Positions 33,389 through 38,707 of a stretch of DNA of 64,000 nt are shown piece by piece. The stretch covers positions 1 to 64,000 of the forward strand of contig JAQUWL010000002.1 in assembly GCA_028692875.1 (NCBI GenBank), read 5' to 3'. The stretch comes from Sulfurospirillaceae bacterium (GTDB taxonomy: Bacteria; Campylobacterota; Campylobacteria; Campylobacterales; Sulfurospirillaceae). The notes beneath the pieces are model-generated. The model ran no database searches. It saw nothing but the letters and a program-made list of their open reading frames with translations, and was not told the DNA's origin. How positions within the stretch are numbered: position 1 is the first letter of the stretch; each line of letters starts with the position of its first letter. The position numbers and the translations under genes were made by a program.

Positions 33389-34441
33389 ATGATACAAGGA
33401 ACGAATTTGATACTTTATGATAAAAGAGGATTGTTCCTAGGGATGGGACGAAATGAACTATCCTTTCTTGGCTATGAAGATATAGATGAGTTTAAAAACT
33501 ACTGTAACGACTTTGCAGATTTATTTGTTAACAAGCCTGGATATATAGTAAAATTTAAAAATTTCTCATGGATTGATTATGCTTTACATAGCGGAATACC
33601 TATAAAAAAAGCTATCATAAAAATAAAAACCGGCAAAGAGGTTGAGACAGAACTTTCTATCGGAGAAATATATCTCTCTGAGCCTATTGGCAATTCAGAC
33701 TCTCTATATTGCATAGAACTTTCAAACTCCTTTGCGAAATCATCTTCTTTATCAAGTATTAAAAAAATGTCTCCCCAAGACGATCATATCGCAGAACCAA
33801 TTGATACAGAGCTGTCGACCACCTCTGTACAAAATTATGAATACTCACATTCGCTAGAAAATCAAAGTTTCGAACAAGACTACATGCCAGAAAAGAAAAC
33901 TGAGCTTGAAGAGTCCACAAAAATAAAATTTGGCAGCGAACTTGAAACCTTTACACCTTCCATCAAAAAAGAAATTAGTAACGACTTTAAAATATGCGAT
34001 TACGACAAAACAGCACAAAGCCTTCCTTTTAGTGAAGGGTTGCAAACGGAAGATATAAAAACAGATAACAAAACAAATTTTAATTTTTTAGAGACAGAAG
34101 ATTTAAACCTCACAAATGAAGACTATGAACCATCGTTTGTTGCAGAAGATTTGGATGTAGATATAATCTTTATTGCCCAATTGTTGCAAGAGTATATTGA
34201 TACATTAGATGCAAAAATGCCTGAAATTAAAGAGTCTCTAGAGAATAAAAATTTAGTAGACGCAAATAATGAAATTTATAAATTAAAAGGAATTGCCCTT
34301 AGTCTTAGAATTCCGCATTTGATAGAGGGGTTCGAATCTCTTCAAAAAGCAACAAGCAAAAAAGACACATCGGCACAACTAATATCATTTGAGAATCTAC
34401 AAAGCAGAGTCTCAAAATTCAAGGAAAATTTAACATGCTAA
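33389..34441 (+). CDS. signalling protein with degenerate Hpt domain
   Basis: The 350-residue soluble protein has an N-terminal folded domain (about 1-115), an acidic, low-complexity linker (about 115-250) and a C-terminal four-helix region (about 255-350). The latter reads EIYKLKGIALSLRIPHLIEGFESL, the exact pattern of an Hpt domain (H-x-LKG-x-A-x-x-L), but the phospho-accepting His is Tyr297. It therefore cannot relay phosphate in the usual way and may bind receivers as a decoy or scaffold. It heads a four-gene plus-strand cluster with a hybrid kinase and a CheY-like protein, and overlaps the Sel1 gene by 7 bp. Confidence 0.72.
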   Translation: MIQGTNLILYDKRGLFLGMGRNELSFLGYEDIDEFKNYCNDFADLFVNKPGYIVKFKNFSWIDYALHSGIPIKKAIIKIKTGKEVETELSIGEIYLSEPIGNSDSLYCIELSNSFAKSSSLSSIKKMSPQDDHIAEPIDTELSTTSVQNYEYSHSLENQSFEQDYMPEKKTELEESTKIKFGSELETFTPSIKKEISNDFKICDYDKTAQSLPFSEGLQTEDIKTDNKTNFNFLETEDLNLTNEDYEPSFVAEDLDVDIIFIAQLLQEYIDTLDAKMPEIKESLENKNLVDANNEIYKLKGIALSLRIPHLIEGFESLQKATSKKDTSAQLISFENLQSRVSKFKENLTC

Positions 34442-34833
34442 GGGTTTTTATTCTTCTTTTTTTTATGTCTACAATCTCTTTTGCAAATAACTTTAGAGAT
34501 GCTATGTTAAGCTATAAAAATGGTGAATTTGAAAAAGCAAAAATACTGTTTGAAAAATCTATAAAAGAGGAAAGTGCTTCACTAGCATATTATTTTTTGG
34601 GCATTATGCATCTCAAGGGTCAGGGCACTGCTGAAAATTCATCACAAGCCATTCCATATCTTGAGCAAGCAGCCCTTAAGGGAAATTTAAAGGCAAAATG
34701 TTTTCTCGCTGAAGCATATATTAAAAACAAAGATAAAAAAGATGAGGTGCTATCGTTATTGAAAGATGGCATTGATAACAATACAAAAGAATGTATAGAT
34801 ATTGCAGCCACTTACGGCATAAGCATAAAGTAA
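34435..34833 (+). CDS. secreted Sel1/TPR-repeat protein
   Basis: A 132-residue protein with a signal peptide ([17 protein letters not shown]) and two or three Sel1-type helical repeats: [67 protein letters not shown]. Such proteins are protein-interaction scaffolds in the periplasm. Its place between the degenerate Hpt gene and a transmembrane kinase with a periplasmic sensor suggests it may present a signal to that kinase. Confidence 0.82.
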
Positions 34834-34855
34834 ACAAAATAAAGGGAAGAGAACC

Positions 34856-37800
34856 ATGAAATTAAAAACCCAACACACGCTTAGATTAATCAGTCAATAT
34901 CCTTTGATGATTTTATTTGTTTTTTCAACATACTTTCTATATCTGTCATACACACAATATGATGCAACAATGTTGTTTAAAGAGAAGCTTGAAAATACAA
35001 AAGTTCTGAACAACTTATCTATAAATCTAGCAACGGAAAGAGGCTTGAGCTCTACGTTCTTCTCAAGCAAGGGAAATATTGCAAAAGAGACTCTTAAAAA
35101 TCAAAGAGCAAAAACAAACAAAGCAATGCAAGAGTTTCACGACCACTTTAAGTCACGCGAAATAAGTCCATTAACAAAAACAATTATGATGTACTTAACA
35201 AAAATAGGAGATATCAGACAAGGGGTAGATGACTTTAGTATTGATTTCAACAAAATGTTTTTTGACTACTACAGCCAAATTAATGACAACATTTTTAAAG
35301 AGCTAAAAACTATTGATACCATCAATACAAACTCTAAAATTTCCAGCTTAACATCTGCACTTACATCTGTTTATAAGGATATTGAATATTCTGGACAAGA
35401 GCGAGGTTTTATCTCAAAGTTGCTTAGCCAATACGTTCCTTTTACTGAAAGTGAGCTCAATATTTGGATTAATATCTTTTCCAATTCTGATACTTTTGAC
35501 TATTCTGGAATTACTGATGTTATAACAAAATCTCAAATTGAAAATTTGTACAAATCGCCTGAAAACGTAAAAATACTTGCGGAAATCAAACAGGCAAAAT
35601 TAGAGCTTATTCTTGCGGCTCAAACTGGAGAATATCTGATTGACCCAACGCTTTGGTTTGGAATTTTGACCAAAAAAATCGAGATTTTAAATAAATCATC
35701 ACAAATCATCAAAAATACACTTTTTGAAGAAGTAAATTCATACGACAAACAAAATATGGGACAGCTAATAGGAGCTGGTGCCACATGGGTTATATCTATT
35801 ATTTTAATGTTTTTGGGTTTTGTTCTATATGGACAATTTAAAAAGAACGTTAGAGGACTTGAAAATATTTTCGTAAAAGTTGAAGAACTTGCAGAGACTA
35901 AACAAAAAGTTGACTTTCAAACCGCAGAGGGCATGGAATCAGCCTATGCTATCATTGACAAGGCGATAGAAAATATTGCACGAGAAAAGAAAAATGCCGA
36001 AGAGGCAAGTGCTGCTAAAAGTATCTTTTTGGCAAACATGTCACACGAAATCCGAACACCGCTTAATGGCATAATTGGCTTTACAGAATTACTAAAAAGC
36101 ACAGACCTTGACGATGAAAAAAGAGAGTTTGTTGATGTTATCGAAAAAAGCTCTGAAAACCTGCTAGACATCATTAACAATATTCTTGATCTTTCAAAGG
36201 TTGAAAGCAATAAGGTCGAAATTGACGAAATACTATTCTCCCCTACTGAAGAATTTGAAAATGCTATTGAGGTTTATGGTCCAAAAGCGGCAGAGAAAAA
36301 TATTCAGCTCCCAATGTATCTTGACCCGTCACTTCACAATTATCTCAAGGGAGATGCCACAAAGATAAAAGAAGTTCTCATAAACCTAATGAGTAATGCG
36401 GTTAAATTTACTCCAACAAATGGACATATAACAGTTGAAATAAGAAGAGTTGAAAATGCACCTGCTGGAAAAGCAAGAATTTCGTTTAGCGTTAGGGACT
36501 CCGGAATAGGCATCAGCCAAGATAAAATCGGTGGAATATTTGACGCATTTAATCAAGCTGATTCTACAATTACTAGAAAATTTGGCGGAACTGGTCTTGG
36601 ATTAACCATTTCATCTAAATACATTACCCTCATGGGTGGAAATCTAAGCGTTGAGAGTGAAGAGGGAAAAGGAAGTAGATTCTTTTTCACGATAGACATA
36701 ATAGAATCTCCAGCAAGCGGAACAGATATGCAAAATCGTTTTAGTGATTTTAGTTGTGCCATATTTGCTCCATCCAATAGCACAAAAGCACATACCCAGT
36801 TTCTATATGACTATTTTACATATTTTGGCTCCACCGTAAAGTATTATAGTGATTTTCAAGGACTTAAAAACTCTATTTTTAAATCAGGCACAAATCTTAT
36901 TGTTGTAGACTATAGCAATCTTACCAAAGAAGAATTAGAGGAGTACAAAAAGATAAAACTTCCTATTTTGATTCTCCTTAAGTCATCTCAAATGTCAAAA
37001 TTTAATGAGTGTAACACAAGGTATATGACTCCTATTTACGAACCTATCAATATATCTAAACTTGTTAAAGCATTAGAGGCAGATAGAGAGTTACTACCAG
37101 CAAAAGACTCCCTTTCCCAGCCTACCAAAAAGAAACAAGTTAAATTTGGTAAAAAGTTCAAAGCAGATGTTTTAGTTGCGGAAGACAATGAAATCAACCA
37201 AAGACTTATAAAAAGAACTCTAGAGGATTTGGGATTAAATATTACACTTGTTCCAAATGGTCTGCAGGCGGTTGAGCAAAGAAAAAATGGTAAATATGAT
37301 ATGATTTTTATGGATATTGCAATGCCTATTATGGATGGTGTTCAAGCAACCCACAAAATACTAGAGTATGAACAAAAAAATAATTTGCCACATATTCCTA
37401 TTGTTGCAATTACCGCAAATGCATTGAAAGGCGACAGAGAAAGATTTATGGGCGAGGGACTTGACGAATACGTTACAAAACCTATAAAAAAAGATAGCAT
37501 AATAAGCGTTCTAAATATCTTCATTAACGACAAAATAGATTTAGAAGATGAGGAAGAAAATACACAAGAACAAGAAATTAAAAAAGAAACAGAAGTTGAA
37601 AATATTTCAAATGAAGAGGATGATAACGGTGGCTACATACTAGAAGAGGAGTTTGAAGAATTTCAAACGGAGACGCAAAGCATACAAAAGCCTGAAGAAA
37701 CCACTTATAGCGATGAGAACTTTATAAATGAGCCTCAAAACATACAGCTTAAGACAAAGAAAGAAGAAGATATCTTGGATGAAAAACTGCCTTTTTCTAT

Positions 37801-38311
37801 TAATGCCATACAGGGCGAAGAGACATCTAAGACCGGTAAGGCAAAAGACAAAGAACCAGAATACGAAACAATAGACTTCTTCCAAGAGAAAAACGATGAT
37901 ATTGAAAAAGTTTGGAATGTTGAAGAAAAAATAGAAACCGATATGCCAAAAGCTGACATTATTGTTTGCAAAAAAAGTCCTATCGAAACCAAAATATTTA
38001 CAAGTGTTCTGAAAAAAATGCGTAACGAAGTCGATTATGCATCATCTATTTCTGAACTTGAAAGTAAACTTAAAACTAAACACTATAGCATAGTAATTGT
38101 TGATAAAGAAATACCGAACTTAGACTTAGAATCCTTCGCTCTGCTCTTGAATAATACTGAATCAGAGCAAAACTTAGGACATATTGCAAGTATAGTATTT
38201 ATTGACCCTCTAAACGAACCAAGCGAAATCGAAAAAAATATTTTTGATGTTGTATTGCCAAATCAAATAAATAAAAAAGAACTTGAAGTTCTGGTTAATC
38301 AGTTCTCATAA
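34856..38311 (+). CDS. hybrid histidine kinase with NIT sensor and three receiver-like domains
   Basis: A 1151-residue membrane kinase. Order: TM1 (about 14-32), periplasmic NIT-type helical sensor ([16 protein letters not shown], about 55-290), TM2 (about 303-325), HisKA with H397 ([16 protein letters not shown]), HATPase with DSGIGI and GGTGLGL, a pseudo-receiver (about 640-745) lacking the Asp, a proper receiver with D820 ([11 protein letters not shown]) and KPI, an acidic linker of about 150 residues, and a C-terminal receiver-like domain that keeps an Asp (VDKEIP) but has lost the acidic pair and the lysine. NIT domains sense nitrate/nitrite in known cases; the ligand here is unproven. 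Confidence 0.9.
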
Positions 38312-38326
38312 AAAGGTCAATAAAAA

Positions 38327-38707
38327 ATGGAAAAAAAACTAACAATACTTGCGGTTGATGACGACTTTATCAACTTAAAGCTTATAAGCTCAATGCTCAA
38401 GAAAAACTCACAAGTTGGTCAGATTTTTGAAGCCATTAACGGACTGGATGCCTTAAATAAACTTCAAGAGGTGGATGGTATAAATCTTGTATTGCTAGAC
38501 ATAAAAATGCCTGTAATGGACGGCATAGAATTTTTAAGAAATTTACAATCCATGCCAAATATGAAAAAAATGCCTGTTATAGTTCTTACAACAGACGAAA
38601 CCCGCAAAAGTGAAGCTTTTGAACATGGAGCTTTTGATTTTCTAGTAAAGCCCATTAGGGAAAACGACTTAAATACGAAAATTGCCAAGATTTCTGATTT
38701 GCTTTAA
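38327..38707 (+). CDS. CheY-like single-domain response regulator
   Basis: A 126-residue lone receiver with all key residues: DDD (10-13), the acceptor Asp in LLDIKMPVMDG (about 54), Thr in VLTTDET and Lys in LVKPIRE. There is no output domain, so it acts by binding a partner. It lies 15 bp after the hybrid kinase and is the likely relay target of that cluster. Its last codons form the left arm of a terminator hairpin. Confidence 0.9.
   Translation: MEKKLTILAVDDDFINLKLISSMLKKNSQVGQIFEAINGLDALNKLQEVDGINLVLLDIKMPVMDGIEFLRNLQSMPNMKKMPVIVLTTDETRKSEAFEHGAFDFLVKPIRENDLNTKIAKISDLL

Follow-up and report, generated by a model that had tools for sequence, protein, structure and literature searches.

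In the window, the 64,000-nucleotide stretch of DNA analysed here, a conserved four-gene operon combines a hybrid histidine kinase and a lone CheY-like receiver with an Hpt fold that has lost its phospho-accepting His (pseudo-Hpt) and a charge-inverted pseudo-receiver (REC3). The operon is an old one in the Campylobacterales, and this is the form it takes in the Sulfurospirillum family. We propose, with confidence just short of even, that an ordinary kinase-to-receiver system is joined here by a docking or output layer, made up of REC3 and the pseudo-Hpt, that would act independently of phosphorylation. The conserved residues support kinase-to-receiver signaling and suggest that phosphate is transferred. 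We infer docking or output without phosphate because REC3 outlasts the kinase, as does the protein joining a PAS domain to the pseudo-Hpt in two of the three kinase-dead groups.

The four genes lie in the same direction on the plus strand (33389-38707) of a 1.94-Mb genome (G000), downstream of the DNA-repair gene uvrC, and end convergent with hisG. Gene 1 (33389-34441, 350 aa) starts 47 nt from uvrC and codes for a PAS domain, a linker and the pseudo-Hpt, as assigned from models and the order kept after uvrC. It overlaps by 7 nt with gene 2 (34435-34833, 132 aa), an optional member encoding a small Sel1-repeat protein (Pfam Sel1, 2.4e-7; alignment; presence across loci). After 22 nt follows gene 3 (34856-38311, 1151 aa), a hybrid kinase of the order NIT-TM-HisKA-HATPase-REC1-REC2-REC3 by Pfam and orthologue alignment, and after another 15 nt gene 4 (38327-38707, 126 aa), the lone CheY-like receiver (Pfam Response_reg, 5.7e-25; alignment). 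All spacings are from ORF coordinates. An earlier note on this DNA had described four coupled ORFs, and all four are in place.

Among named contigs, those with the nearest matches to gene 1 come from Sulfurospirillaceae assemblies and from species of Sulfurospirillum. Throughout this family the genes follow one order, uvrC, PAS-Hpt, (Sel1), kinase, REC, which recurs in other Campylobacterales. The cluster, or a part of it cut by a contig end, is found in 33 of 36 same-family relatives. G031 and G008 have no cluster; there uvrC and hisG are immediate neighbours or are separated by just two small ORFs. The uvrC of G011 is a 43-aa fragment only, which says nothing on the presence of the cluster. 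The four genes are kept in fixed order and lost as a block. Conservation of the four-gene order, which the earlier note named as a check, thus holds for the order itself and the joint loss, but not for Sel1, which is present at 25 of 35 family loci and absent from 10 (leaving aside loci cut before its place). Sel1 is a dispensable member of the operon. At three loci (L091, L097, L126) the kinase frame is split in the assembled genome, perhaps through sequencing errors.

The kinase begins with a NIT sensor domain (aa 57-280; 35024-35695, plus strand), matched by Pfam PF08376 at 79.2 bits against a cut-off of 24.9 (8.3e-22). The domain lies between two membrane helices, as judged by eye, and by this match the kinase is a putative nitrate/nitrite sensor. 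Also on the plus strand, Pfam places HisKA with H397 at aa 387-451 (36014-36208) and HATPase_c at aa 499-614 (36350-36697). REC2 (aa 772-886; 37169-37513, plus strand) is a complete receiver with D820 by Pfam (Response_reg, 4.9e-28) and alignment. We aligned 67 orthologous kinase sequences, some of them partial. The His at 397 is present in all 65 rows having the column, and the ED, D, T and K of REC2 in 61 of 61. The phospho-accepting His of HisKA, the N-box, the G-box and a complete receiver are found in one chain, the marks of a hybrid histidine kinase. REC1 (36749-37066, plus strand) is a probable pseudo-receiver that keeps Asp 685 (Asp in 52 of 63 orthologue rows) and has Glu 729 for Lys (57 of 61). 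Its profile aligns only weakly with that of REC2 (13.6% probability), and it may be called receiver-like by position and pattern. Since the REC2 residues are invariant and the changes in REC1 and REC3 are conserved, having REC2 as the only complete receiver is a fixed trait of the 67-sequence alignment; H397, D820 and the intact middle receiver had all been recognized in the earlier note.

Some related kinases differ in layout. One (G063; L205, 1-3054) has two REC2-like receivers (441-559 and 723-842) before REC3. The kinases of G150 (L204, 2663-6805) and G228 (L209, 2231-6439) are longer, at 1380 and 1402 aa, and some 300 residues separate their REC1 from REC2. Both genomes keep the lone REC, and neither has a PAS-Hpt match.

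The gene 2 product has one Sel1 repeat above the Pfam cut-off and, judged by eye, a probable signal peptide. Gene 4 encodes a lone receiver with all key residues, like CheY-type single-domain receivers. Of 37 aligned rows, 36 keep its phospho-Asp; the exception is G022, with Asn (L076, 9284-9667), while its sister genome G036 has Asp. Counting the window and two split-kinase loci and setting aside 6 unresolved ones, 61 loci have sufficient sequence and a live kinase, and at 55 of them a REC comes directly after the kinase. Live-kinase loci without an adjacent REC are L104, L140, L141, L157, L161 and L168.

The AlphaFold model of gene 1, built with 31 aligned relatives, has two confident parts with a low-confidence linker between them. 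The first (residues 7-118; 33407-33742, plus strand) is a PAS fold with pLDDT of 90+ and PDB matches to PAS/LOV domains (best E 1.8e-3). Pfam reports no PAS in gene 1, of which this is the best conserved part. The second (residues 248-349; 34130-34435, plus strand) consists of helices with pLDDT above 90 that match the rice HPt 1yvi at 1.5 A. A profile of this domain from the family matches the profile of outgroup His-bearing Hpt domains with 99.2% probability. The Pfam Hpt score is below threshold (PF01627, 13.2 bits against 24.6), but given the model helices, the 1yvi match and the profile match we consider the Hpt assignment right. The domain has the helical bundle of PF01627 and lacks both the phospho-accepting His and a score above the cut-off. 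Model and profile thereby uphold the Hpt-like fold suggested in the earlier note, and the alignment places Tyr297 at the phospho-His column.

The Hpt alignment held 73 distinct gene-1 proteins; with duplicates removed and L065 and the window added, it covers 35 family loci with a complete Hpt. None of the 35 has His at the column. Instead they have Leu (7), Ser (5), Ile (5), Tyr (5), Thr (4), Val (3), Ala (3), Met (2) or Asn (1), so Tyr297 is not conserved. Outside the family, 25 of the 32 loci with a scored Hpt have His in at least one Hpt domain, the other seven being L098, L099, L140, L141, L146, L157 and L168. This count leaves out L104, which is at the same place as L144 and in which no Hpt reaches significance. 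The 25 loci indicate that the His was lost in the family and not always absent. Relatives with His at this position, which the earlier note took as counting against its reading, are therefore missing from the family and common beyond it. As these non-family relatives keep a His-bearing Hpt, often in tandem with His-less ones, the family domain is a true pseudo-Hpt.

Several outgroup proteins carry Hpt domains in tandem, two or three of them; as a rule the terminal domain lacks His and the one or two before it have it, or the order is reversed. L102, L103, L105 and L110 score above the Pfam Hpt cut-off, and except in L103 the best stretch is the His-bearing domain. All ten Nitratiruptor-type proteins have Lys or Arg at the His column of the terminal Hpt, and this His-less third domain is on average 77% conserved versus 53% for the His-bearing first. 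The seven Sulfurimonas-type proteins show the reverse, with 37% for the terminal Hpt versus 63%. In a UvrC tree the family forms one clade (SH-aLRT 99) of 37 rows, 2 without the cluster and 35 classed as without His, a class that counts the truncated L107 and L143, which have no readable column. In a tree of Hpt domains, built on a short alignment with 26 of 93 inner branches open, the candidate parents of the family domain are a His-bearing copy or a terminal His-less copy. L110 (7795-10431) is an 878-aa gene-1 homologue with a long acidic linker of near-identical repeats. G011 encodes a separate hybrid kinase of 878 aa (L113, 2-2638); both the PAS and the C-terminal Hpt of gene 1 find a match in its frame. 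L139 (8013-8963) and L142 (3910-4884) each have a single Hpt with a differing His motif (HQVLG/HQLLG) and have the hisG-side neighbourhood in common.

In the mechanism we favor, the membrane kinase with its periplasmic NIT domain would autophosphorylate on H397 and pass the phosphate to D820 of REC2. It would also pass phosphate, directly or via a free Hpt from elsewhere, to the lone CheY-like REC. The His-bearing PAS-Hpt proteins of relatives would be a relay step, and with that His lost two phosphate routes are left, the direct one and one through a free, trpA-linked Hpt. A complete relay in trans, from REC2 to the free Hpt, a stand-alone protein of 136-143 aa with a His motif, and on to the lone REC, with the PAS-pseudo-Hpt protein as regulator or competitor, is in our estimate unlikely. 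It would account for the full conservation of REC2, which would be unnecessary if the kinase passed phosphate straight to the REC, and an open frame of 139-143 aa scoring above the Hpt cut-off is present in the window genome (where it reads FHNIKSASGFL) and in all 10 family genomes searched. However, a small Hpt is also found in the operon-less G031 (143 aa) and, weakly, G008 (142 aa), so the free Hpt is not tied to the operon. REC2 has decayed in G079, G092 and G128, all of family f11, while the kinase and the lone REC stay, which fits direct transfer. In the genome of the window the free Hpt gene (L218, 1393-1803) adjoins a trpA-like gene, so named from its sequence. Across the order, small Hpt frames of similar length are common.

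Equally unlikely, in our view, is that gene 1 acts through its PAS domain only, its pseudo-Hpt being a remnant in decay, with the kinase phosphorylating the lone REC as a plain two-component pair. Decay would explain why position 297 drifts among nine residues across the 35 loci and why the pseudo-Hpt is the least conserved domain and evolves faster than any other in the family (mean distance 1.04 versus 0.44 for PAS), and the Hpt goes undetected in L104/L144. What it does not readily explain is that all 35 family loci with the complete region retain a full-length Hpt fold, with L299, K300 and L306 near-invariant and a very high model confidence.

REC3 (37952-38308, plus strand) is the second degenerate module. 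It has K1039 and K1040 in place of the acidic pair, E1044 and D1083. Among the orthologue rows the two Lys are present in 59 of 61, the Glu in 58 of 60 and the Asp in 59 of 60. The predicted structure is a receiver fold (pLDDT 93), and the profile comparison with REC2 gives 96.1%. With a receiver fold and without the key catalytic residues, REC3 is a pseudo-receiver. Its PDB matches include CheY D13K Y106W at ranks 6 and 13, in a list where CheY entries are common. Lysines at the metal-binding acids of REC3 should stop normal phosphorylation. In CheY, the D13K change, an Asp-to-Lys at one such acid, is described as constitutively active in passages of PMC4671073 and PMC11528121, and in EpsW the same change gave no activation according to a passage of PMC4671073. 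The pseudo-Hpt is a natural candidate partner of REC3, though REC3 also persists without it. L104 has REC3 with no Hpt detected and the six kinase-less genomes described below have REC3 with no PAS-Hpt match, so REC3 does not need the pseudo-Hpt. In a weak test on 26 related rows, the rate of the pseudo-Hpt correlated more with those of the lone REC (0.69) and HATPase (0.67) than with that of REC3 (0.47).

Relatives with a dead or missing kinase bear on the role of REC3. G032 is closely related to its neighbours on the UvrC tree, yet its kinase gene has only 511 aa and runs from NIT and the membrane part through an acidic linker directly to REC3. It has no HisKA, HATPase, REC1, REC2 or lone REC. 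The frames for PAS-pseudo-Hpt, Sel1 and NIT-REC3 are intact, against at least 14 stops in a random-mutation control of comparable identity. Invariant positions are kept in PAS (20/30), NIT and membrane part (34/47), Sel1 (21/22), Hpt (3/3) and REC3 (13/14). The intact frames and kept invariants rule out neutral decay of this cluster. At the same locus (L101, 6364-9172), the PAS-Hpt and kinase are 34-40% alike to those of close relatives at the amino-acid level and Sel1 about 60%, with flanking genes at 77-97%. The cluster may have changed rapidly, or a distant copy may have taken its place.

Other such genomes belong to f11 (1.4-2.0 Mb), a family suggested to be the Campylobacteraceae, in which the REC3 profile revealed a series. 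Kinase motifs are present in seven f11 genomes (G079, G092, G128, G104, G116, G150, G228), with an altered G-box and no adjacent lone REC in G104 and G116. Four (G046, G159, G179, G199) encode a long dead kinase without phospho-His, N-box and G-box. The remaining six (G064, G169, G189, G209, G219, G236) are kinase-less and have 333-395-aa membrane proteins ending in REC3. A lone REC follows the gene in none of the 11 kinase-dead genomes (G032, the four and the six). Five of the 11, G032 and the dead-kinase four, keep the PAS-pseudo-Hpt gene, and the six kinase-less genomes have no PAS-Hpt match anywhere in the genome. In these six, REC3 is better conserved than the remaining cytoplasmic sequence (48% versus 24% and 30% between G064 and G169, for instance), with the first Lys of the pair kept and the second changed. 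In three g37 genomes with live kinases, REC3 is at 72-74% versus 84-85% for the kinase. Against REC3 being the best conserved part, the g15 pair G046-G179 has 39% for REC3, 44% for the pseudo-kinase and 46% for REC2. In G209, an ArsS-family kinase and dnaJ adjoin uvrC, which together with the f11 genome sizes underlies the suggested family name. The Campylobacter jejuni gene adjoining uvrC is Cj1245c, a putative orthologue. Cj1245c is listed as a hypothetical protein in PMC5135748.

The REC3 profile search matched 118 of 218 genomes of the order and left 100 without a match. This search was the main source of the g15 and g28 genomes (two genera), so REC3 is kept in them by construction and lineages without REC3 would be missed. 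G032 was found with other queries, and the G046 operon was first seen by its place beside uvrC. The g15 and g28 losses may not be independent, as both genera are in f11.

The same genomes weigh on a further account, more doubtful than the two above, in which REC1 and REC3 are ligand-gated autoinhibitory pseudo-receivers inside the kinase, as in ShkA or CikA, with no partner among the four genes. The layout, a pseudo-receiver beside a true receiver, is the same, and when the kinase core is compared with PDB sequences, 6qrj ('Hybrid kinase') ranks with the best matches. Nevertheless, kinase inhibition cannot be the only job of REC3, since genomes with a dead or missing kinase retain it. That Tyr297 replaced His as phospho-acceptor is most improbable, and as a conserved acceptor it is ruled out, since Tyr is found in only five of the 35 family loci, the window included, and the other 30 have Ser, Ala, Val, Leu, Ile, Thr, Met or Asn.

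Returning to the docking or output layer, loss of the His would leave the PAS domain tied to a phosphate-free Hpt fold in the family, and REC3 would be a phosphorylation-independent docking surface at the kinase C-terminus. Together the pseudo-Hpt and REC3 may keep a PAS input and the kinase joined in a single complex, or they may provide a second output, with the Sel1 protein as a dispensable periplasmic accessory. A scaffold or decoy role for the degenerate modules, as the earlier note imagined, would be in keeping with the lineages that retain such modules after kinase loss. More tentatively, and with clearly less confidence, we suggest that the phosphorelay has repeatedly been turned into a phosphate-free complex. 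Its conserved core, passing the signal by constitutive docking of the receiver-Hpt type, would be the membrane sensor and REC3, joined in two of the three kinase-dead groups by the PAS-pseudo-Hpt, and the kinase, true Hpt and lone REC would be a losable add-on. A dead receiver kept where the kinase is dead or lost suggests that part of the signaling works without phosphate transfer. With a pseudo-Hpt and a pseudo-receiver in one conserved operon, true and pseudo versions in related genomes, and natural kinase-less relatives, the set is tractable for asking what pseudo-domains do without phosphate.

A hybrid-kinase phosphorelay with pseudo-domains is a known kind of system; new here are this variant and its instructive evolutionary series. 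We found no description of the operon or its function in the open-licence literature. The best match to the kinase is the BarA-type hybrid kinase (NCBIfam PRK11107; aa 374-911, E 5.1e-121), with HisKA, HATPase and receiver in the same order. Unlike that type, it scores 405 bits against a cut-off of 890 and has a NIT sensor, an extra C-terminal pseudo-receiver and a separate His-less Hpt protein. Caulobacter ShkA, which we take PDB 6qrj to be, is likewise a hybrid kinase with a pseudo- and a true receiver (sequence match E 9.5e-52), but the window system has REC3, a NIT domain and a separate PAS-pseudo-Hpt. Plant pseudo-HPt proteins of the AHP6 type also have an Hpt fold without the His, whereas the one in the window is joined to a PAS domain and has a set place beside its kinase in a bacterial operon. 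In PMC12632262, Bourret and colleagues give 0.9% (90/10,312) for Hpt domains without His and argue that phosphotransfer has no way around this residue. The same paper describes ShkA and CikA, and its abstract terms the switching mechanisms of bacterial pseudo-receivers a mystery. Like the window kinase, CikA of Synechococcus is a hybrid kinase with a pseudo-receiver, one that binds partners according to that text (PMC12632262). It differs in its sensor and from REC3, which has the conserved KK/E/D set and persists without a kinase.
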